Origin: Alphaproteobacteria bacterium | GTDB taxonomy: Bacteria > Pseudomonadota > Alphaproteobacteria > Rhodobacterales > Rhodobacteraceae | NCBI GenBank assembly: GCA_030425145.1 | Contig: JAUHVK010000014.1 | Coordinates: 1 to 64,000, forward strand | Length of the DNA stretch: 64,000 nt | Direction of reading: 5' to 3' | Shown: positions 45,882 to 57,801 of the stretch, piece after piece | How the letters are laid out: each line of letters starts with the position of its first letter | Numbering within the stretch: position 1 is the stretch's first letter | The notes under the pieces: generated by a model | Database searches by the model: none | The model's input: only the letters and a program-made list of their open reading frames with translations | What the model was told of the DNA's origin: nothing | Position numbers and translations under genes: made by a program

Positions 45882-46023
45882 GGCGCCGACAACAGGGACG
45901 GGAACACCGGTTAATTGCTTTGAGGCGCTCTGCCTGCGCGTATGCCGCGCGGGACCGGAAAACTCGTGCCTATCGCGGCCTCGCAGGGGCCATGGGGTAC
46001 ACAGAAACAAAGAGACCGGTGCG

Positions 46024-49000
46024 ATGAAAATCGAAAGAAAGTTTACCAAGTCTGGGCAGGATGCATACGCGGGTATCGAGTTTGTCTCGACCACGTCGGA
46101 GATTCGAAACCCTGACGGGTCCGTGGTTTTCAAACTGGACAACGTGGAGGTTCCCAACAGCTGGAGCCAGGTCGCCAGCGACGTCATCGCACAGAAATAC
46201 TTTCGAAAAGCCGGCGTTCCCGCTGAACTGAAGAAGGTCAAGGAAAAGGGCGTGCCCAGCTTCCTGTGGCGCTCGGTTCCGGCAAAGGACGACACTCCGC
46301 GCACGGGCGAGACATCTTCCAAGCAGGTGTTCGACCGTCTGGCGGGCGCGTGGACATATTGGGGCTGGAAAGGCGGCTACTTCTCGTCCGAAGAGGATGC
46401 TCAGTCCTATTTCGACGAAATGCGCTTTATGCTGGCCACACAGAAGGCTGCACCCAACAGCCCCCAGTGGTTCAACACAGGTCTGCACTGGGCTTACGGT
46501 ATCGATGGCCCGAGCCAGGGTCACTTCTATGTCGACTACAAGACAGGGGAACTGACCAAGTCCTCTTCGGCCTATGAGCACCCGCAGCCCCATGCGTGCT
46601 TCATCCAGTCCGTGGCAGACGATCTGGTCGGTGACGGCGGCATCATGGACCTCTGGGTCCGCGAAGCGCGTCTCTTCAAGTATGGCTCCGGCACCGGGAC
46701 CAACTTCAGCTCGCTGCGCGCGGCCAATGAGCCGCTGTCGGGCGGCGGCAAGTCGTCGGGCCTCATGGGCTTCCTCAAGATCGGTGACCGCGCAGCCGGC
46801 GCGATCAAGTCAGGTGGTACCACACGTCGCGCGGCCAAGATGGTGATCTGCGATGCCGACCACCCGGATATCGAGGAATTCATCAACTGGAAGGTCAAGG
46901 AAGAGCAGAAGGTCGCCAGCATCGTGGCCGGCTCCAAGATGCACGAGAAGATGCTCAACGCGATCTTCAAGGCGATCAGCAGCTGGGACGGTCTGGAAGA
47001 CGACGCCTATGACCCCAAGAAGAACGAAGCGCTGAAAGGCGCGATCCGCGCCGCCAAGGGCGTGATGATCCCCGAGACCTATATCAAGCGCGTGTTGGAT
47101 TATGCGCGGCAGGGCTATGCGTCGATCGAATTCCCGACCTATGACACCGATTGGGACAGCGAAGCCTATGCATCCGTGTCGGGCCAGAACTCGAACAACT
47201 CGATCCGCGTCACCAACGCCTTCCTCCAGGCGGTAAAGGATGACTCTGATTGGGAACTGATCCGCCGCACCGATGGCAGCGTCGCCAAAACGATCAAGGC
47301 ACGCGACCTCTGGGAAGACGTTGGCCACGCCGCTTGGGCCTGTGCCGATCCGGGCATCCAGTTCCACGACACCGTCAACGAGTGGCACACCTGCCCGGCG
47401 GATGGCGAAATTCGCGGCTCCAACCCGTGCTCGGAATACATGTTCCTCGACGACACAGCATGTAACCTCGCGTCGATGAACCTGCTGACCTTCCTCAAGG
47501 ACGGCGAGTTCCAGTCCGAAGACTACATGCACGCAGTGCGCCTCTGGACACTGACGCTGGAAATCTCCGTGATGATGGCGCAGTTCCCGTCCCGCGAGAT
47601 CGCACAGCGCTCCTATGACTTCCGCACGCTGGGTCTGGGCTATGCAAATATCGGCGGCCTGCTGATGAACCTCGGCTACAGCTACGACTCGGATGAAGGT
47701 CGGGCGCTCTGTGGTGCACTGACCGCGGTCATGACCGGCGTCTCCTACGCCACATCTGCCGAGATCGCAGGCGAGTTGGGTCCGTTCCCGGGGTACAAAA
47801 AGAACGCCGAGCATATGCTCCGCGTAATCCGTAACCACCGCAACGCCGCCTATGGTGCGACGGATGGCTATGAAGAGCTTTCGGTCAAGCCGGTCGCTCT
47901 GGATCACGCCAACTGCCCGGACAGCCGTCTGATCGATCTGGCGATGGCCAGCTGGGACGAGGCGCTGCGCCTTGGCGAAAAGCACGGCTACCGCAACGCG
48001 CAAGCCACGGTGATCGCACCGACGGGCACCATCGGTCTGGTCATGGATTGCGACACGACAGGCATCGAGCCGGACTTCGCACTGGTGAAGTTCAAGAAGC
48101 TTGCCGGTGGCGGTTACTTCAAGATCATCAACCAGTCGGTTCCGGCCGCTCTGGAAAAGCTGGGCTACAGCTCTGCACAGATCGAAGAGATCGTGTCCTA
48201 CGCGGTCGGCCACGGCACCATCGGCAACGCGCCGGGCATCAACCACACCTCGCTGGCAGGTCACGGCTTTGGTCCGGCACAGTTGGACAAGGTGGACAAT
48301 GCGCTGGCCTCGGCCTTCGACATCCGCTTCGTGTTCAACCAGTGGACCTTGGGCGAAGAGTTCTGCCGCGAAGTGTTGGGCATCCCGACTGAAAAGCTGA
48401 ACGATGCGTCCTTCGACCTGCTGCGCCACCTCGGTTTCACTAAGTCGGAAATCGACGCGGCCAACGACCATGTCTGCGGAACCATGACGCTGGAAGGTGC
48501 GCCGCACCTCAAGGTCGAGCACTACCCGGTCTTCGATTGCGCCAACCCCTGTGGCAAGAAGGGCAAGCGCTTCCTGTCGGTGGACAGCCACATCACCATG
48601 ATGGCAGCGGCACAGAGCTTCATCTCGGGTGCGATCTCCAAGACGATCAACATGCCGAATGACGCCACCATCGAGGACTGCCAGAAAGCCTATGAGCTGA
48701 GCTGGTCGCTCGGCACCAAGGCCAACGCGCTCTACCGTGACGGCTCCAAGCTGTCTCAGCCTCTGGCGGCAGCGCTGGTCGAAGACGATGACGAGGCGGC
48801 AGAAGTGCTCGAATCCGGCTCCATCCCGGAAAAGGCGCAGGTTCTGGCCGAGAAGATCGTCGAAAAGGTGGTCATCAAGGAAATCCAGAAATCTCACCGC
48901 GAAAAGATGCCGGAGCGCCGCAAGGGCTACACGCAGAAAGCGGTTGTCGGCGGGCACAAGGTCTACCTGCGCACCGGCGAATACGAAGACGGTTCCCTGG

Positions 49001-49698
49001 GCGAGATCTTCATCGACATGCACAAAGAAGGTGCGGGCTTCCGCGCCATGATGAACAACTTCGCCATCGCGGTGTCGGTTGGTCTTCAGTACGGTGTGCC
49101 GCTGGAAGAGTTCGTCGATGCCTTCACCTTCACCAAGTTCGAACCCGCGGGCATGGTGCAGGGCAATGACAGCATCAAGAACGCGACCTCGATCCTCGAT
49201 TACATCTTCCGCGAACTTGCTGTCAGCTATCTCGACCGCACCGATCTGGCCCATGTGAAACCCGAAGGTGCCACCTTCGACGATCTGGGCCGGGGCGAGG
49301 AAGAGGGCGTGTCCAACGTTAAGGAACTGTCCGAGACCGCAGCCTCCCGCTCGCTCGAAGTGCTCAAGCAGATCAGCTCCACCGGCTACCTGCGCAAGCG
49401 CCTGCCGCAGGAACTGATCGTGCTGCAGGGCGGCCAGACCGGGGCCGTGGCCTTTGGCGGTGGTGCGGATGCGGTAACAGCGCTGAACACGCTGGTGCCC
49501 GAGACCGCATCGGTCACGACATCGGTCGCCGCCGCGTCCACGACCAGCACGTCTGTGTCGGCTATGACAGCGGTCACACGGGCAAAGATGCAGGGCTACG
49601 AAGGCGAAGCCTGCGGTGATTGCGGCAACTACACGCTGGTCCGCAACGGCACCTGCATGAAGTGCAACACCTGCGGCGCAACATCGGGCTGTAGCTGA
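46024..49698 (+). CDS. nrdJ: vitamin B12-dependent (class II) ribonucleotide reductase
   Basis: This 1224-residue adenosylcobalamin-dependent enzyme makes deoxyribonucleotides with or without oxygen. Blocks such as [40 protein letters not shown] (active-site Asn-Cys-Glu NPCSE) and [16 protein letters not shown] are typical. The tail [20 protein letters not shown] is a Cys-rich zinc ribbon, the re-reduction element. ATG 46024 ([11 protein letters not shown]) is chosen from family length and the purine-rich leader; an open frame upstream to 45826 has no similarity. No nrdAB or nrdDG is in the window. Two hairpins follow. Confidence 0.96.
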
Positions 49699-49712
49699 GC
49701 CCTAACAGTCAC

Positions 49713-49732
49713 GAGGCGGGTGCGCCCGCCTC
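49713..49732. terminator. GC hairpin after nrdJ
   Basis: GAGGCGGG and CCCGCCTC (49713-49720/49725-49732) form an 8-bp stem with a TGCG loop, without a T-run. It may stabilise the nrdJ mRNA end ahead of the true terminator. Confidence 0.45.
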
Positions 49733-49803
49733 TGACGCGCGTCAGGCCGCAGGCAAGATTATTCCGAGCGGTGTACAAATTGAGAGCTTGACGAGCGAAA
49801 CTT

Positions 49804-49832
49804 AAAGGGGGCCACTGCGGCCCCCTTTTTTT
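49804..49832 (+). terminator. rho-independent terminator of nrdJ
   Basis: AAAGGGGGCC (49804-49813) pairs with GGCCCCCTTT across a 5-base loop and continues into a run of T. It ends the nrdJ transcript ahead of the convergent dehalogenase gene. Confidence 0.92.
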
Positions 49833-49927
49833 GTGGTCCTAAACCTCGGCAGCGGCAGCCAGAAGTTTGGCACGGAACCAACGTTGAAAAGATCGTTAAT
49901 CAAATTCTTCCAAGTATTTTCAGTCAC

Positions 49928-52900
49928 TTACAATTCGATCATGATCTCACCATCCGGCTCTGCCGCGCGCGACTGGCAGAGGATGATCGTGTCTTGACGC
50001 TGGGCTTTGGACAGCACGAAATCCCGGTGTTCAACCTTGCCGCCCAACACCCGCGCCTTGCAGACACCGCAGATCCCGTCCGAACATTTCACGTCCACCG
50101 CCACACCATTGGCATTCAGAACATCCGTCGCTGTCTGATCGGCCGGGACACGGAAGCTGCGCCCGTCGCTGAGCTTGAGCGTAAAAGGGTGGTTCTCATA
50201 CTCGGGCAGTTCCGGCACGGCGAAGTATTCCAGATGCCGGGCCTCATCGGGAAATCCTTTCCGTTCAGCGGTTTCCATGACGGAATTCATGTATGAATCA
50301 GGCCCGCAGGTGTAGATGTGTTGTCCATCCGCATAGTCGGGGATCAGCGCCTCCAGATCGGCGCGTGTGCTTTCGTCGCTGACATGGATATGCACCTTGT
50401 CGGCCCAGGGCGCGTTGGCCAGATCGTCCAGATACCCCGCCTCGGCGCGGGTTTTCAGGGAATAATGCAATTCGAACGGACGCCCCAGCGCATGCAGCCG
50501 ATGCGCCATGGCGATCATTGGCGTGACGCCAATGCCACCGCCCATGAGCCACGTGAACGTCGCATCCTCGACCAGCGGGAAATGGTTGATGGGTTTCGAC
50601 ACAAAGACCCGTCGCCCTTCGGCAAAGATGCGATGCAAGAGCGCCGATCCTCCGCGCCCCTGATCCTCGCGCAAAACACCGATCTGATAGACCGACCGAT
50701 CCGCCGGATCGCCGGACATCGAATACTGTCGCAGGAATTCCGGAGCGACCACCAGATCGAGATGCGCACCCGCGCTCCATTCCGGCAGGTCATGCCCGTC
50801 GACATGGCGGAATTCGTATTTGGTCACCGTGGGCGACATTTTCTCGACCTTGCTGACCATCACCGGGACTACGGGGCTTTCCGTTGCATCTTTGGGACGG
50901 TGCAGATGGGACGTGTCGCCCTTGGCCAGCCGTGCCCTGTGTTCAGCCGCGCTGACCATCTTCGTATACGCCTCGATCCCGGCTTCCCGGTCCATCGGGT
51001 CGGGGTACGGATAGGGATGCGGGGCCAACGGGGCCGGGTAGACGGCCAGCGTCTGGTCCTCGTATTTCAGGTCGAGGTCTTTTTGCAGATCCCGCGCATT
51101 GACCAGGTGATTGGTCGGCGCGTAGCTGCCATTCTCCTGTAACTCCAGGTCCCACCACCATTTTTTCACCGGGTTCAGCCCGCCACGCCCCGCCGCATCA
51201 TCCAACTTGGCGAGAAGCGGCGCGGTTTGTGGGACATTCATCGCAGCCCAGCGAAACGGTTTTTCGGCGAACAGCCCTTCGAGGTTCCATGGGCAGGTCT
51301 TCATGCACCGCCCGCACATTGCGCCGCCTTCGGTGGTGATGCGGTAGGTGGCGCATTTCTGGCTGTCGGATTTCCAGATCTCGTAACCGTTGAACATCAG
51401 CTTCGGCCCGGCGGTGATTGCGCCCGAGGGGCATTCGCGGGCGCATTTGTTGCAGCTTTCGCAGAAGGTTTGCAGGCCGAAGTCGATGGGTTTGTCATGC
51501 GCCAGCGGCATGTCGGTTGTGACGACGCCGGATTTGAGGCGTGGGCCAAGGAACGGGTTGAGGATCACCTCGCCAATCCGGCTGACCTCACCCAGACCGG
51601 ACAGCAGCAGAAGTGGCGGTTGTAGCACTTCGCCATCGAGTACCGTGTGGGCTTTTGCGCTATAACCCAGATTGCGGATTTGCTTTGCGAGAACCCCACC
51701 CAACAGCGAGAACCGAAGGTAAGCGCGCATGGATTGCGCGACGCTGATCCAGTCGTCGCCCGAGGCACCGTCCATTGTTTCGTAGCCCTGATCGATGATG
51801 ATGCTGATCGCCTGATCATGCGGCGGGTCAATGGGTTCACCGCGCGCGTCGTGGCTGTACCACGTCCAGTCCGGGCAGCGGCTGATGCCCAATGCATCGA
51901 CGCCCAGCCAATAGGCCGTGGCCTTGATCGCGTCGGCGTTGTATTGCAAATTTGCAGGGAGCGGGCCGTTTTCCGGCGGTCCGTCTTGCAATAATACAAA
52001 GGCTCCCAGCATCCGCCGTTGCGCCGACGAGGGCGCGGCCTTGCGGGCATAGTAGCCACCCTTTGCGCCGTCTTGCAGCTTTTTGCCCATGTCACCGAAC
52101 TGCGCGCGGGCGAACATGTCGGTGCGTTTCGGCACGCGGGGCACGTTGGCTTCGTCGATATAGGTGGTGGGCGTGTCGACCCGTTTCAGGGTTTCGAACG
52201 GATGCGGGCCGTCGACATAGCGGCGGCCGTCGAAAGGGTTGGTGTTGAGGCTGGAACGGGCCGAGGTGCTGCCGAGTTTCCACGCGAGCCCGTGAGTCAG
52301 GGATTTCGGCTGCTCGGCGGCCAGCGGCGCGTCATGGGCCAGTTCGAAATTCGTCGTGACCACCGCCACACCGAACCGATCGCCGAGCCACGGATTGACC
52401 AACTGTCCGGATGAAACGTACGCCAGACCAGCCGCAGCCGTACAGACGTTCAGGTCGACATCCGTGCTGGTAGCCGTATGTGCCTTGGCGTCCCAGCCGA
52501 GCAGACGGATATAATTGGCGATGACGACAGCGGTTTCGGTAGCGCGCAGGCAGGCGCGGTGGGCCTGAGCATCTGTTATCCACTCGGTCCCGGTTTCGCC
52601 GGGTTTAGGGTCACGTGGGATCTCATACAGAAACACCAGCGCGGTGTGGTGCCCGTCGATGGTGCTGGGCGGTGCTTCCATCGATTCCTTAAGATCGGCC
52701 ATAATCATGTCGATGCCGGAAGCCAGCGTTTTGGTCTGTCGGGTCTTCAGATCATTGGCCAGTCGGTCGATATCAGGGTTGAGGCGCGGTTCGGGTAACA
52801 GCGCTTCTTGCAGCAAAGGGCCGATGCCGACCATCGTCGCGTCTGAGAAATATCCAAACGCTTTTAGGTGGTTGGCGCGCTCTATTACATTGTCCGGACA

Positions 52901-53128
52901 GACGGAGCGGGCTTTGTTCACAAAGCCGTCGCGGATCGCGTCCATCATCGCTTGGTATTCGCCCATCGCGTTAACGATGGAGGCGGGGTCTTCGGGGCGG
53001 TGAAAACTGAGACCGGGATGGCGCGGGATCGATGCAGGGTTTGGCATCGGCCCACTCGCCGCACGCTCCAGCGGGAACGGGCCAAGGTGCACCGGCCGAT
53101 TTCTATCGGAAAAGAACCGCAAGCCCAT
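49928..53128 (-). CDS. self-sufficient reductive dehalogenase (RdhA-reductase-ferredoxin fusion)
   Basis: This 1066-residue soluble protein removes halogens from organohalides, probably halogenated phenols or benzoates as known for the fused enzymes BhbA (Comamonas) and NpRdhA (Nitratireductor). Residues ~160-620 form the B12-binding dehalogenase. Two nitroreductase-like repeats (~190-270, ~460-550) share AKAHT and VVTT...LAHD. Tyr424 and Lys492 are candidate catalytic residues. Two [4Fe-4S] motifs follow: Cys556-559-562-566 and C-x12-CxxC-x3-CP at 592/605/608/612. Residues ~755-950 are an FNR-type reductase (RQYS at 800-803 for flavin, GGGIGVTP at 863-870 for NAD(P)H). The C-terminus is a plant-type 2Fe-2S ferredoxin (Cys1015, 1020, 1023, 1051). 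There is no Tat signal, so it is cytoplasmic. ATG 53128 has GGAGGA upstream. The WYL gene lies 56 bases upstream on the same strand. Confidence 0.93.
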   Translation of the reverse strand: MGLRFFSDRNRPVHLGPFPLERAASGPMPNPASIPRHPGLSFHRPEDPASIVNAMGEYQAMMDAIRDGFVNKARSVCPDNVIERANHLKAFGYFSDATMVGIGPLLQEALLPEPRLNPDIDRLANDLKTRQTKTLASGIDMIMADLKESMEAPPSTIDGHHTALVFLYEIPRDPKPGETGTEWITDAQAHRACLRATETAVVIANYIRLLGWDAKAHTATSTDVDLNVCTAAAGLAYVSSGQLVNPWLGDRFGVAVVTTNFELAHDAPLAAEQPKSLTHGLAWKLGSTSARSSLNTNPFDGRRYVDGPHPFETLKRVDTPTTYIDEANVPRVPKRTDMFARAQFGDMGKKLQDGAKGGYYARKAAPSSAQRRMLGAFVLLQDGPPENGPLPANLQYNADAIKATAYWLGVDALGISRCPDWTWYSHDARGEPIDPPHDQAISIIIDQGYETMDGASGDDWISVAQSMRAYLRFSLLGGVLAKQIRNLGYSAKAHTVLDGEVLQPPLLLLSGLGEVSRIGEVILNPFLGPRLKSGVVTTDMPLAHDKPIDFGLQTFCESCNKCARECPSGAITAGPKLMFNGYEIWKSDSQKCATYRITTEGGAMCGRCMKTCPWNLEGLFAEKPFRWAAMNVPQTAPLLAKLDDAAGRGGLNPVKKWWWDLELQENGSYAPTNHLVNARDLQKDLDLKYEDQTLAVYPAPLAPHPYPYPDPMDREAGIEAYTKMVSAAEHRARLAKGDTSHLHRPKDATESPVVPVMVSKVEKMSPTVTKYEFRHVDGHDLPEWSAGAHLDLVVAPEFLRQYSMSGDPADRSVYQIGVLREDQGRGGSALLHRIFAEGRRVFVSKPINHFPLVEDATFTWLMGGGIGVTPMIAMAHRLHALGRPFELHYSLKTRAEAGYLDDLANAPWADKVHIHVSDESTRADLEALIPDYADGQHIYTCGPDSYMNSVMETAERKGFPDEARHLEYFAVPELPEYENHPFTLKLSDGRSFRVPADQTATDVLNANGVAVDVKCSDGICGVCKARVLGGKVEHRDFVLSKAQRQDTIILCQSRAAEPDGEIMIEL

Positions 53129-53184
53129 TATGTCCTCCCATGCGCGTTCTACCGCGCGTCTGGGCTGAGTGCACCATTCCCGGC

Positions 53185-53850
53185 TCAGGACTGCAAGGCG
53201 TGAAAGTCCTTCAGTGTTTTTCCGACCTCATCGACAAAGAGACCGGGCAGGGGCGTGAGGTCTGTCACCCGGTCCATTCGGAAGGTGGCGAAGGCTTCGT
53301 CGGTCTCGTCCCAGACGACACAAGTCCAGATGCGACCCCAGTAATCGAGATGCAGTGGCCGAACCGTGTGATTCTGGATGTCACCCTCAAGCCGCAGTCG
53401 CAGTTTTTGGCGCGCGCGGATCGCCTTGCGGAAGGCTGGCATGTGGCGAAAGCCTTGCGCGGCCTCGGCAAAAGGGTAGGTCGCAAAGCCAAACTTGCCG
53501 ACAGGGGTTCCCGCGTCTTCTGGCAGCACGGCGTCGATCTTGTCGGCCAGCGCCCGTGCGGCGACTGCCAAATCCTCGGTTTCAGACGCGCCGACCGCCG
53601 CCAGTCCGACATGCAGCGCCTCCAGTTCCGATTGGGTCAGGTTGAGCGGTGGCAGGGTGATCATCGCCTGCGCGGTATAGCCAGACCCGCGCGCTCCCTC
53701 GACCGGGACACCCGACGCGGCAAGCGTGTCCATGTCGCGATAGATCGTACGCACGGAGACGCCGAGATCCTGTGCCATCGCCTCGGCGGTGTGGAGGCGA
53801 CCGTCCTTGAGGCGCTGCATCAGGGCGTAGAGCCGGTCGCTGCGTTTCAT
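53185..53850 (-). CDS. YafY-type HTH/WYL transcriptional regulator
   Basis: This 221-residue regulator has an N-terminal winged helix-turn-helix (residues ~3-60, LYALMQRLKDGRLHTAEAMA then LGVSVRTIYRDMDTL) and a C-terminal WYL-like ligand domain (~135-200, RPLHLDYWGRIWTCVVWDET). The family senses small ligands and usually represses. ATG 53850 follows GGAGAATCAG. An array of TGACA/TGTCA sites lies 30-65 bases upstream, likely its own operator. Because the dehalogenase gene follows on the same strand after 56 bases, the regulator probably controls it together with itself. The inducer is unknown, perhaps a haloaromatic. Confidence 0.9.
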   Translation of the reverse strand: MKRSDRLYALMQRLKDGRLHTAEAMAQDLGVSVRTIYRDMDTLAASGVPVEGARGSGYTAQAMITLPPLNLTQSELEALHVGLAAVGASETEDLAVAARALADKIDAVLPEDAGTPVGKFGFATYPFAEAAQGFRHMPAFRKAIRARQKLRLRLEGDIQNHTVRPLHLDYWGRIWTCVVWDETDEAFATFRMDRVTDLTPLPGLFVDEVGKTLKDFHALQS

Positions 53851-53880
53851 CTGATTCTCCGTGCTGCGCTGCGTGTATAC

Positions 53881-53914
53881 TGACAAAAACCTGTCAACTG
53901 ACAAGCTCTTGACA
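53881..53914. promoter_or_regulatory. TGACA/TGTCA operator array before the WYL-rdh operon
   Basis: TGACA (53881-53885) and TGTCA (53892-53896) form an inverted repeat with 6-base spacer; TGTCA and TGACA (53899-53903) form another with 2-base spacer; a further TTGACAAAAAC at 53909 repeats TGACAAAAAC at 53881. The array lies between the divergent WYL gene and tatA, and GTATAC next to it could be part of the WYL promoter. Confidence 0.65.
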
Positions 53915-54024
53915 AAAACGGCCGAAATTGGCGTGTTTTCGTCCTTTCGCAGGGCGTCACGAGCCATTACATAACCGCAGTGGAATTCAACGCAGGCATC
54001 TGCCTGCCGGTAAGGAGAGACTTC

Positions 54025-54249
54025 ATGGGTATCGGAAATATCGGTCTGCCGGGCCTTCTGCTCATCGCCGTCGTGGTGCTGGTGCTGTTTGGCCGTGGCA
54101 AGATCTCGTCGCTGATGGGCGAAGTTGGCAAAGGCATCACCGCGTTCAAGAAGGGCGTGGACGAAGGCAAGCAGGAGCTTGAGGAACAGAAAGCCGAAGC
54201 CGCCAAGGACGTGACGCCTGAAGAGGCGAAAGACAAGGACAAGGTCTAA
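54025..54249 (+). CDS. tatA: Sec-independent translocase subunit TatA
   Basis: This 74-residue protein has one N-terminal membrane helix ([20 protein letters not shown]) and the FGRGKI hinge followed by an amphipathic helix and an acidic tail. It forms the pore-like part of the twin-arginine export system for folded proteins. ATG 54025 follows AAGGAGAGACTTC. tatB follows after 6 bases. Confidence 0.95.
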
Positions 54250-54255
54250 ACGATT

Positions 54256-54708
54256 ATGTTCGATCTTGGCTTTGCCGAGCTTTTGGTGATCGGGGTCGTG
54301 GCGTTGATCGTCGTCGGCCCAAAGGATTTGCCAGTGCTGTTCCGGAAGGTGGGCAACTTCATGGGCAAGGCCCGTGGCATGGCGCGGGATTTCAGCCGCG
54401 CGATGAACGAGGCCGCAGACGAATCCGGTGTCCGGGACGTGCAAAAAACCTTCAAGTCCGCGACCAACCCGCTGGGCAGCGCGATGGATGGCGTGAAAGA
54501 TGCAGCGAAGTCGATGACCAATATCGACCCGTCCAGCAACACAGGAAAGTTGTCCGCCGAACGTGAGGCCGCCAAGAAGAAAATCGAAGTCAGTGCCGCC
54601 CGCGCCGCTGCCGACCGCAAGAAGCGCGAGGCCGACGAGGCACTGAAAAAGGCCGAGGAAATGGAAGCGGCATTGAAAGCCGAGTCCAACCCGGAAAAGG
54701 ACGCCTGA
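54256..54708 (+). CDS. tatB: Sec-independent translocase subunit TatB
   Basis: This 150-residue protein has the TatB-type N-terminus ([20 protein letters not shown] then [13 protein letters not shown]) with Glu8 in the membrane helix, followed by an amphipathic helix and a long Lys/Ala/Glu-rich coiled-coil tail. With TatC it binds twin-arginine signal peptides. tatC begins 1 base after the stop. Confidence 0.94.
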
Positions 54709-54709
54709 G

Positions 54710-55663
54710 ATGAGTGCCCGCGACGACGAGATCGAGGATAGCAGCGCGCCGTTGATCGAGCATCTGGCCGAGCTGCGCACCCGGCTGATCCGGTCGGTAA
54801 TTGCGCTGATTATCGGCATCTGTGTGCTGTTCATCCCGTTTCAGGGTGATTTTCTCGCCGAGCATGTGCTGCGCTTCCTGCTCGTTCCAATCGAGGAAAC
54901 GCTGCGCGCTCTGGGTGATCCGGCTCCGACGCTTCAGTATACCAGCCCGCAGGAATACCTGTTTGTGCTGTTCCGCATCGGTCTGGTGTTCGGCTTTGCC
55001 TTGGCCTTCCCGGTGATCGCGCACCAGATGTGGCGCTTCATTGCGCCGGGCCTCTATAAATCCGAGAAATCGGCGTTCCTGCCGTTCATCATCGCATCAC
55101 CGGTGATGTTCCTGGCAGGCGCGGCCTTTGCGCATTTTGTGGTGACGCCGCTGGCCATGGCATTCTTTCTTGGCTTCACCGACGCGCCGTCGCTGTTCGC
55201 CAATATGCTGTCCGACTCCGTGGATGTGGACCCGACGGCGGTGGTGCCTGCGACCAATGACGGGTTGAAGATCACCTTCTTCGGTAAGGTGAATGAAAGC
55301 CTCCAGACATCGCTGGTGTTCATCATGGCCTTTGGCCTGTGCTTTCAGCTGCCCGTGCTGCTGACCCTTATGGGCAAGGCGGGGCTTGTTTCGGCTGATG
55401 GTCTGGGCAGCGTGCGCAAATACGCGATGGTCGGCATTCTGGTGCTGGCCGCGCTTGTGACGCCGCCCGATGTGGTGACGCAGCTTATCCTCTTTACCGT
55501 GGTTTACGGGCTTTATGAGGTGTCGATCATCCTTGTGCGACGCGTTGAAAAAAAGCGCGAAAAAGAGCTGAAAGCCCAGGGTCTCTGGTTCGAAGAGGAC
55601 CCGGCTGAGGGCATGGAGGATGACCCTCTGATGCAGGAATTCGACGAGGATGCGAAGAAGTGA
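54710..55663 (+). CDS. tatC: Sec-independent translocase subunit TatC
   Basis: This 317-residue protein has six membrane helices and is the Tat receptor core. The typical N-terminal IEHLAELRTRLIRS is at residues ~16-29 (with Glu of the signal-peptide site), FPVIAHQMWRFIAPGLYKSE near 100 and a cytoplasmic C-terminal extension. Its stop overlaps the start of the DUF815 ATPase gene. Confidence 0.96.
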   Translation: MSARDDEIEDSSAPLIEHLAELRTRLIRSVIALIIGICVLFIPFQGDFLAEHVLRFLLVPIEETLRALGDPAPTLQYTSPQEYLFVLFRIGLVFGFALAFPVIAHQMWRFIAPGLYKSEKSAFLPFIIASPVMFLAGAAFAHFVVTPLAMAFFLGFTDAPSLFANMLSDSVDVDPTAVVPATNDGLKITFFGKVNESLQTSLVFIMAFGLCFQLPVLLTLMGKAGLVSADGLGSVRKYAMVGILVLAALVTPPDVVTQLILFTVVYGLYEVSIILVRRVEKKREKELKAQGLWFEEDPAEGMEDDPLMQEFDEDAKK

Positions 55664-56496
55664 CCGACCCGATGGAGCGGATCGCCGCCGCGCTGGAGCG
55701 CCTTGCTCCGGCGCCGCAGCCAGCCCCGGATTTCGACTTAGCGGATGCATTTGTCTGGCATGTGGACCCAGATCACCTGCAACCCGTGCCGAAGGTCAGC
55801 CGGGTTCCCGTGGACCTGCTTGTGGGGGTGGATCGCAGCCGCGATACGCTCTTGGCCAATACAAGGCAGTTTGCCAAAGGTTTGCCAGCGAACAACGCGC
55901 TGCTTTGGGGCGCGCGTGGTATGGGCAAATCGAGCCTTGTGAAGGCGGTTCATGCTGCCGTGCTGGCCGAAGGGCTGTCGGTGAAACTGGTGGAGTTGCA
56001 GCGCGAGGATTTGCCGAGCGTGGCGCGCTTGCTCAACCTTCTCAGGGCTGCCGATCACCGCTTCCTGCTGTTCTGCGATGACCTGAGTTTCAGTCATGAC
56101 GACCAGCATTACAAATCGTTGAAGGCTGTTCTGGATGGCGGGGTCGAGGGACGTCCGGACAATGTGGTTTTCTATGCCACGTCGAACCGCCGTCACCTGA
56201 TGCCGCGGGACATGATCGAGAACGAGCGGTCCTCGGCGATCAACCCGTCTGAGGCGGTGGAAGAGAAGGTGTCGCTGTCGGATCGGTTTGGTCTGTGGCT
56301 GGGTTTCCACCCGTGTAATCAGGACGACTACCTGGCGATGATCCGGGGCTACTGCGATGCCCATGGGGTCGAGATCGACGATGCCACATTGCGGGCAGAG
56401 GCGATTGAATGGCAGGCGACCCGTGGGTCGCGGTCAGGCCGGGTGGCGTGGCAGTATTTCACCGATCTTGCGGGCCGCCGCGGCGTCGCAATCTAA
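55660..56496 (+). CDS. DUF815 family AAA-type ATPase
   Basis: This 278-residue protein has the P-loop GARGMGKSS (~84-92), a Walker B-like LLFCDDLSF near 145-153 and the block FYATSNRRHLMPRDMIENER near 168-187. DUF815 (YjgR-type) ATPases are conserved but poorly characterised. GTG 55660 overlaps the tatC stop by 4 bases, so it is translated together with the Tat genes; whether it serves Tat export is unknown. Confidence 0.88.
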   Translation: MTDPMERIAAALERLAPAPQPAPDFDLADAFVWHVDPDHLQPVPKVSRVPVDLLVGVDRSRDTLLANTRQFAKGLPANNALLWGARGMGKSSLVKAVHAAVLAEGLSVKLVELQREDLPSVARLLNLLRAADHRFLLFCDDLSFSHDDQHYKSLKAVLDGGVEGRPDNVVFYATSNRRHLMPRDMIENERSSAINPSEAVEEKVSLSDRFGLWLGFHPCNQDDYLAMIRGYCDAHGVEIDDATLRAEAIEWQATRGSRSGRVAWQYFTDLAGRRGVAI

Positions 56497-56564
56497 GACC
56501 TGTGTGGCACCAAATTCGCCGCTTTACTCGGGGGCGTGCGCTCCAGAATTTTATGGGTGAGGCC

Positions 56565-56588
56565 CAGAATCTTCGTACGAAGATTCTG
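56565..56588. repeat. 24-bp perfect palindrome
   Basis: A self-complementary sequence centred on GTAC (half-site CAGAATCTTCGT) with flanking A+T-rich repeats such as TTAATATTCTGC. It lies between convergent genes. The TTCG...CGAA centre resembles the palindromes at 28234-28276. Confidence 0.8.
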
Positions 56589-56675
56589 ACGCGCCGACGT
56601 TAATATTCTGCAAATCGGAACTCTTGCCGGTCTGGCAATACCCATCTTCTCGACTCGCAAAAAATCACTCGCATG

Positions 56676-56708
56676 AAAGAGCCGTGCCAAGTTCAGGCAC
56701 GGCTCTTT
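56676..56708. terminator. strong hairpin downstream of the one-carbon operon
   Basis: AAAGAGCCGTGCC (56676-56688) pairs with GGCACGGCTCTTT (56696-56708) around a 7-base loop, 10 bases beyond the minus-strand stop at 56719. The paired A/T ends make it usable on both strands. Confidence 0.85.
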
Positions 56709-56718
56709 CCGCAAATCC

Positions 56719-57801
56719 TTAAGCCCGGCGGCGGCGGCCCCCGCTGCGGCCTTCGCGGCCACGGCCTTCCTGACCGGCTTTCGGCGGCTGACGGTTGAAC
56801 GAAATCCACGCCCCACCGCCTTCGTCATTGTTGGTAAGGAAGTTTGCGGCGCGGATCGCTTCCATCTCTTTGCCCGGACGCGGCTTGGTCGAGCCGAGGC
56901 CGAAGAGTGTGCAGAAGGTTTCGTCGTCCATGTCCTCTGGCAGAATGATGCCGGCAGCGGCCACTTCGGCGCGCTTTTCTGCTATCTTGGTGGGGCCGAC
57001 GGGCAGAGCGACCGGGTTCATGATGGCGGAGGTCATGCCGGCACCCATGGCCATCGGCAGGAAGGCATTGTTGATGCCATGGCGGTTCGGCAGGCCGAAG
57101 CTGATGTTTGACGCGCCGCAGGTGGTGTTCACGCCAAGCTCTTCCCGCAGACGACGGACGAGGGTGAAGACTTGGAGACCGGCAGTGCCCATGGCGCCGA
57201 TCGGCATGACCAGTGGGTCAACCACGATGTCATGCGCCGGGATGCCGAAATCTGCGGCGCGTTCGACGATTTTCTTGGCCACGGAAAAACGGACGTCGGG
57301 GTCTTCGCTGATCCCGGTGTCGTCGTTCGAGATCGCCACAACTGGCACGTTGTATTTCTTGACCAGCGGAAGCACCATCTCGAGCCGCTCTTCCTCACCC
57401 GTGACCGAGTTCAGAAGGGGACGGCCTTCAGCAGCGGCAAGACCGTTTTCCAATGCGCCGGGTACCGAGCTGTCGATGCAGAGCGGGCAGTCCGTGACCG
57501 CTTGTACGCGTTCGACCAGTTCCTTCATCAGTGTCGGTTCGACAAAATTGTTGTCGGCATAGCGCGGATCTTCGGCCATCTTGTTCGAGAACACGGCGCC
57601 GGAGTTGATGTCGAGGATGTTTGCGCCGGCTGCGACCTGCGCCAAGGCGTCAGCTTCGACCCGGCTGAAATCGCCGCGTTCCAGTTCTTCATTCAGGATC
57701 TTCCGACCAGTCGGGTTGATCCGCTCACCGATCACGCAGAACGGCTGGTCGAACCCGATGATGGCGGTTTTGGTCTTGGACTCGACAATCGTGCGGGTCA
57801 T
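56719..57801 (-). CDS. methyltetrahydrofolate:corrinoid methyltransferase-like protein
   Basis: This 360-residue pterin-binding-domain protein moves a methyl group between methyl-THF and a corrinoid protein. Conserved blocks include VIGERINPTGRKILNEELER, ANILDINSGAVFSN near 60, CIDSSVPGALENGL and ASNISFGLPNRHGINNAFLP near 240. It is the MtrH/AcsE/MtgA-like type used in Rhodobacteraceae one-carbon metabolism. No corrinoid-protein domain is fused to it and no such gene lies in this window, so the partner is elsewhere. The C-terminus has an odd Arg/Gly-rich tail (about 340-360: GREGRSGGRRRRA). It overlaps the HAD gene by 4 bases and is the last gene of the operon. Confidence 0.85.
   Translation of the reverse strand: MTRTIVESKTKTAIIGFDQPFCVIGERINPTGRKILNEELERGDFSRVEADALAQVAAGANILDINSGAVFSNKMAEDPRYADNNFVEPTLMKELVERVQAVTDCPLCIDSSVPGALENGLAAAEGRPLLNSVTGEEERLEMVLPLVKKYNVPVVAISNDDTGISEDPDVRFSVAKKIVERAADFGIPAHDIVVDPLVMPIGAMGTAGLQVFTLVRRLREELGVNTTCGASNISFGLPNRHGINNAFLPMAMGAGMTSAIMNPVALPVGPTKIAEKRAEVAAAGIILPEDMDDETFCTLFGLGSTKPRPGKEMEAIRAANFLTNNDEGGGAWISFNRQPPKAGQEGRGREGRSGGRRRRA

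Follow-up and report, generated by a model that had tools for sequence, protein, structure and literature searches.

Self-sufficient reductive dehalogenases (RdhA) of the catabolic type are a known class of enzymes, with BhbA, NpRdhA and JtRdhA already published. JtRdhA from Jhaorihella thermophila (WP_104007082) was purified as an NADPH-driven debrominase and deiodinase that is active in air, carrying flavin mononucleotide (FMN), one 2Fe-2S cluster, two 4Fe-4S clusters and cobalamin and consuming NADPH in 1:1 coupling in air (PMC10463259). The excerpted text of that report describes removal of bromine and iodine and dehalogenation of none of the chlorinated or fluorinated compounds tried, and it lists a homologue from Ruegeria pomeroyi. 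For NpRdhA from Nitratireductor pacificus (PDB 4RAS, 6ZXU, 6ZXX, 6ZY0, 6ZY1), the catalytic residues are given as Tyr426, Lys488 and Arg552 (PMC10463259, PMC7565698), with the halogen bound on cobalt and the tyrosine acting as proton donor (PMC7565698). BhbA is encoded on plasmid pBHB of Comamonas sp. 7D-2 (WP_015585978), and a 2014 deep-sediment metagenome study reported a cluster, largely from Alphaproteobacteria, that corresponds to bhbA (PMC3939436). Here we describe a gene on the minus strand at 49928..53128 of a 64,000-nucleotide stretch (the window) of contig JAUHVK010000014.1, from a Rhodobacteraceae bacterium (assembly GCA_030425145.1). By analogy with these enzymes its 1066-residue product is very probably (about 0.93) a cytoplasmic, self-sufficient catabolic reductive dehalogenase of the BhbA/JtRdhA class, driven by NAD(P)H and acting on ortho-halogenated phenols.

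A sequence-only reading of this DNA had proposed an open reading frame with exactly these coordinates and had called its product a soluble, catabolic, NAD(P)H-coupled single-chain enzyme. The frame was recovered as proposed, with an ATG start, and the class assignment is supported because it agrees with the domain order, the key residues, the match in fold and the 50% identity to BhbA over the full length. The protein scored 195.5 bits against the reductive dehalogenase model TIGR02486 (curated cut-off 160.35), and a scan of the whole source genome with the same model found a single place above the cut-off, its best piece scoring 164.6 bits. A GGGAGG ribosome-binding motif can be read at 53134..53139, 5' of the start codon, and its GGAGG is kept in all nine aligned Marivita-clade sequences. 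All features described below lie on the minus strand of the window.

From the N to the C terminus, the protein consists of a stretch shared with NpRdhA, an insert, a vestigial repeat, a catalytic corrinoid-binding copy, two [4Fe-4S] motifs, flavin and NAD(P)H domains, and a ferredoxin. In a search against solved structures, NpRdhA (4RAS) matched residues 3-104 and 159-743 with 528 bits together, and residues 755-1057 matched modules of the phthalate dioxygenase reductase type, namely the P450 fusions 6KBH (210 bits) and 6LAA (191 bits), and phthalate dioxygenase reductase itself (2PIA, 176 bits over residues 756-1057). These modules resemble the C-terminal part in having flavin, NAD(P)H and 2Fe-2S domains, but their partner is a dioxygenase or a fused P450 rather than a corrinoid enzyme. 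The flavin and NAD(P)H-binding domains (residues 755-970; 50219..50866) were assigned from structure, fold and motif matches and carry a flavin motif, RQYS, at residue 800 and a pyridine nucleotide motif, GGGIGVTP, at 863. The plant-type 2Fe-2S ferredoxin domain (residues 989-1055; 49964..50164) matches PF00111 at 6.5e-10 and contains CSDGICGVC at 1015 plus Cys1051, its four cysteines (1015, 1020, 1023 and 1051) being present in 83 of 83 aligned sequences. This alignment comprises the window protein, 80 fetched relatives (the best 80 of 579 loci) and two BhbA-type plasmid proteins, and it serves for all counts out of 83 given here.

The corrinoid-binding fold occurs twice. Residues 437-548 (51485..51820) form the catalytic copy, as placed by the 4RAS alignment, by conservation across the 83 rows and by the internal repeat; it includes Tyr470 (51719-51721) and Lys532 (51533-51535). 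Residues 160-269 (52322..52651) align to it with a score of 167, far outside 300 shuffles (mean 29.4, standard deviation 4.7, maximum 50), and in this vestigial copy Cys193 and Gly253 occupy the places of the catalytic tyrosine and lysine. The two [4Fe-4S] motifs (residues 556-613; 51290..51463, which also includes Arg596) read CESCNKCARECP at residue 556, and Cys592 plus CGRCMKTCP at 605; they match Fer4_16 and Fer4_7 and do not vary among the 83 rows. The flavin/NAD(P)H reductase, 2Fe-2S ferredoxin, two [4Fe-4S] clusters and corrinoid-binding core listed in the sequence-only reading were all recovered as domains, motifs and structure matches. Its choice of NpRdhA residues for comparison, Tyr424 and Lys492, was mistaken: the 4RAS alignment places Tyr426, Lys488 and Arg552 of NpRdhA on Tyr470, Lys532 and Arg596 of the window protein. 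Tyr470, Lys532, Arg596, Ser466, Met467 and the twelve cluster cysteines that were checked are identical in all 83 sequences.

With the cofactors and electron route of the characterised relatives, NAD(P)H would pass a hydride to the flavin, FMN by analogy, and single electrons would then travel from the flavin through the C-terminal 2Fe-2S ferredoxin and the two [4Fe-4S] clusters to a base-off cobalamin seated in the second corrinoid-binding fold, the catalytic one. The substrate, an ortho-halogenated phenol, would bind with its halogen toward the cobalt, Tyr470 would serve as proton donor assisted by Lys532 and Arg596, and halide would be released. The dehalogenated phenol could enter ordinary ring cleavage, for example as 4-hydroxybenzoate through PobA (4-hydroxybenzoate 3-monooxygenase) and protocatechuate 3,4-dioxygenase. 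Both are encoded elsewhere in the genome, PobA and the dioxygenase beta subunit PcaH scoring above their cut-offs on contig C53. The likely substrates, bromo- and iodophenols, are also drawn from the relatives. Brominated aromatics, proposed in the sequence-only reading, are retained by analogy, and the chlorinated aromatics proposed beside them are doubtful because JtRdhA acted on none of the chlorinated or fluorinated compounds in the excerpted report.

Other corrinoid proteins were weighed against this assignment. Epoxyqueuosine reductase (QueG) belongs to the same cobalamin enzyme class (PMC10463259, as far as excerpted), and the window protein does match TIGR00276 weakly, so that QueG or another corrinoid iron-sulfur relative might have been misread as a dehalogenase. 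This match of 23.6 bits is far under the cut-off of 200, a separate gene on contig C102 of the same genome scores 432.8 bits, and the window protein exceeds the reductive dehalogenase cut-off and carries a reductase fusion; QueG was rejected on these grounds, as having next to no chance of being correct. A membrane-linked respiratory dehalogenase, which would share the core family and for which nearby tatB and tatC genes could be cited, is just as improbable. A motif and hydropathy check, rather than a trained predictor, found neither an RR pair in the first 60 residues nor a strongly hydrophobic N-terminal stretch, in agreement with the absence of a twin-arginine translocation (Tat) signal noted from the sequence earlier; the protein also has its own reductase domain and a duplicated core, and the respiratory type was rejected for lack of a Tat motif. 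The genes adjoining the dehalogenase are a WYL-domain regulator and a convergent NrdJ gene (the RdhB membrane anchor gene was not searched for as such).

Comparison with the described enzymes places the window protein among the self-sufficient catabolic dehalogenases. BhbA is co-linear with it over the full length, with 50% identity (538 of 1083 positions) and the same catalytic and cluster residues; it differs in being plasmid-borne, alongside ring-cleavage genes and porins, in being largely unlike at residues 121-160, and in having serine instead of valine at the position of NpRdhA Ala419. NpRdhA shares the fold, the Tyr426/Lys488/Arg552 residues and the vestigial repeat, but it has no reductase or ferredoxin domains, and its counterpart of the insert at residues 105-158 is about 40 residues shorter. 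JtRdhA, as described in the excerpted report, is likewise an RdhA-PDOR fusion with a duplicated core, no Tat signal, a marine host and about 39% identity to NpRdhA. The marine roseobacter catabolic debrominase Ros_A3X954 from Roseobacter sp. MED193, published in 2026, is also reported to be without a Tat signal (PMC13101508); in the excerpted text its iron-sulfur motifs stand at residues 283-345, which would make it a shorter type. In the same strain there is also L041, which is related to the window protein over its full length and 73% identical to it.

All of the best 80 of 579 loci matched the fusion at near full length, and none of the 83 sequences contains a stop. Within the Marivita clade, the ratio of nonsynonymous to synonymous substitution (dN/dS) was 0.05-0.10 in eight of eight comparisons, values that are approximate given large synonymous distances of 0.49-1.37. 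The gene is therefore under purifying selection, and it is intact. Nothing was found in favour of a fusion of two genes that is decaying or was misassembled; this reading is refuted by the fusion matches across loci, the stop-free sequences and the dN/dS ratios and has a negligible chance of being right.

An AlphaFold model was built from an input alignment of 43 rows of the 81 roseobacter-type sequences and reached a mean predicted local distance difference test score (pLDDT) of 70.7 and a predicted template modelling score (pTM) of 0.62. In a fold search with this model, NpRdhA entries filled the first 14 ranks (4RAS_A: TM-score 0.81 by target length, 39% identity), followed by 6KBH, 6LAA and 2PIA.

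Some observations weigh against the assignment to a self-sufficient dehalogenase of ortho-halogenated phenols. Confidence in the model is low across the catalytic and cluster region, with residues 499-530 and 552-626 below 50 pLDDT, and because the core is weak no active-site geometry was taken from it. JtRdhA comes from another genus, and its likeness to the window protein is one of published description rather than sequence. No aromatic-degradation gene was found among the scanned genes beside the window gene. A search of the source genome for the cobalamin biosynthesis protein CobN with TIGR02257 returned nothing, the same search matching in five of 14 control genomes. Finally, the shorter roseobacter debrominase is reported in the excerpted text to be highly oxygen-sensitive (PMC13101508), and for this reason the oxygen tolerance known from JtRdhA should not be assumed for the window protein.

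The sequences separate into two sets. In the 83-protein tree, drawn with a midpoint root, a single long branch with full support divides BhbA and a protein from Nitratireductor OM-1 from the 81 roseobacter-type sequences. The sets differ most sharply at residues 121-160, where identity to the window protein in two 20-residue bins is 0.87 and 0.80 within the roseobacter type versus 0.12 and 0.28 for the two BhbA-type rows. This region overlaps the insert at residues 105-158 (52655..52816), the stretch left unaligned in the 4RAS match, which is about 40 residues longer than NpRdhA at that place. An insert in JtRdhA is described as folding over the active site (PMC10463259, excerpted text), and by comparison the insert of the window protein is perhaps the same active-site cover. 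At the position of NpRdhA Ala419, a residue reported to line the second-halogen pocket (PMC7565698), valine is found in 80 of 83 sequences, serine in the two BhbA-type rows and alanine in one.

Conservation of the insert within the marine clade, and its unlikeness to that of BhbA, hints at a shared native substrate. We tentatively propose that the roseobacter-type enzymes, set apart from BhbA as a separate clade, combine a conserved lid-like insert with valine in the second-halogen pocket and act on a single native substrate in common; mono-ortho-bromo- or iodo-4-hydroxyphenyl compounds derived from halogenated tyrosine or from algal phenolics are candidates. Given that 186 of 390 sampled genomes of the order have the gene, such enzymes could be a main route for the aerobic removal of bromine and iodine from aromatic matter in the sea. 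Taken as a whole, this proposal is less likely than not and far more doubtful than the class assignment itself. Alternatively, the same scaffold could have a native substrate that is not an environmental organohalide, the enzyme performing another reductive step or detoxifying a halogenated metabolite in roseobacters, with bromophenol cleavage as a side activity. Both the clade-specific conserved insert and the wide occurrence of the gene (186 of 390 sampled genomes of the order) with little shared gene context would fit such a role, but all 83 rows agree in the tyrosine, lysine, arginine and serine of the dehalogenation site, and for JtRdhA the excerpted report gives Km values of about 20 uM with two bromo-hydroxybenzoates, NADPH being consumed 1:1 (PMC10463259). 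We consider this alternative unlikely and retain dehalogenation of ortho-halogenated phenols as the probable function.

In the tree, copies from genomes named to the order Rhizobiales (L029, L036, L046, L047, L050, L053, L065, L066, L069, L072 and L074) are scattered among the roseobacter copies. This scatter suggests exchange between orders, although many of these genomes are metagenome-assembled genomes (MAGs) in which binning errors are possible. A count of one change between tree groups sets the Rhizobiales-order sequences against the two BhbA-type rows only and is uninformative on exchange.

The dehalogenase is widespread in both the genus and the order. Of the 17 genus genomes, 15 have a stop-free relative, which in one genome is split into two pieces lying on separate contigs, and the remaining two (G008 and G011) gave no match at an expect value (E) of 1e-100. 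Relatives in the genus are 81-95% identical and the nearest named rows are Marivita; in the 88-95% identity range every relative but one, a Rhodobacteraceae MAG (L009), is Marivita. On these relationships the host is Marivita-like. In an even sample of the order, matches at E 1e-200 or better occurred in 186 of 390 genomes and 58 of 139 genera. With a published class and this distribution, the find is not unusual. GC content of the gene (0.608) compared with that of the window (0.601) gave no signal of recent transfer.

As an enzyme it adds one more member to a known and characterised class; its possible importance lies in the scale. Presence in nearly half of the sampled genomes would make aerobic reductive debromination common in roseobacters and their kin, and the oceanic bromine and iodine cycle would then become testable with cultured strains; the clade-specific insert offers a concrete handle on the native-substrate question. 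We found no earlier report of the order-wide frequency or of the clade-specific insert in the open-licence literature, and these two points are what the present analysis adds.

In the genus, the dehalogenase gene is convergent at its 3' end with NrdJ, a B12-dependent ribonucleotide reductase. Upstream by 56 bp lies a transcriptional regulator gene (53185..53850), with HTH_11 and WYL domains that were identified on a longer frame containing it. This WYL gene is present in 16 of the 17 genus genomes, including G008, which has no dehalogenase; G011 has neither gene. A close WYL relative stands near the dehalogenase in eight of the best 80 of 579 loci, all eight in the Marivita clade (L009 being the Rhodobacteraceae MAG). 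Upstream of the WYL gene is a 40-bp operator-like block with TTGTCA boxes (53877..53916), with one variable column among nine Marivita-clade sequences, which is probably the regulator's own operator. In G008 the block is kept with one base change, only about 225 bp separate the WYL gene from NrdJ, and no trace of the dehalogenase was found even at E 1. Because this genome retains the WYL gene and block without a dehalogenase, and because close WYL relatives near the dehalogenase all fall in the Marivita clade among these 80 loci, we rejected the WYL protein as a dedicated regulator of the dehalogenase.

Outside the genus the neighbours of the dehalogenase vary, and no conserved catabolic operon was found among 76 loci (72 of the best 80 of 579, plus four plasmid regions). 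Neighbour counts in these loci are lower bounds, as many loci end at contig ends; one member per family was scanned. The commonest neighbours were an aldehyde dehydrogenase (at least 13) and three genes of a 5-oxoprolinase-like set (at least 11-12), followed by a LuxR-type regulator gene on the opposite strand (at least 11) and relatives of PobA (at least 6). In three of the 76 loci the PobA relative is 3-13 nt from the dehalogenase on the same strand, and the only one of these adjacent cases that was scored (L066) reached 636 bits; a fourth roseobacter-type locus and the two BhbA-type loci have such a relative farther away. A Ruegeria clade (L049, L055, L058, L071, L075 and L077) has a member of the molybdopterin-dehydrogenase FAD-subunit family 97-131 nt downstream of the dehalogenase on the same strand, one member having been scanned.

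Cobalamin supply in the source strain may depend on uptake; we do not claim auxotrophy. The source genome has three cobalamin riboswitches, two of them upstream of genes for a BtuB-like receptor and for a BtuC/BtuD-like importer, calls that rest on frames partly cut by the fetched stretch and on best model hits below curated cut-offs. PF02514 matches occurred in 14 of the 17 genus genomes, the source genome not among them. Two of these 14 were opened: the G002 protein is BchH, and one of two G008 proteins is CobN. With the BchH match as the guide, the missing PF02514 match suggests that the phototrophy of its relatives may be absent from the source strain. G008 (L120), the single genome with a confirmed CobN, happens to be among the two that lack the dehalogenase, a lone coincidence. 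Three cobalamin-related genes lie inside 12 kb of the window (46018-57801), possibly by chance: NrdJ, the dehalogenase and a methyltetrahydrofolate:corrinoid methyltransferase-like gene (PRK07535, 394.5 bits).

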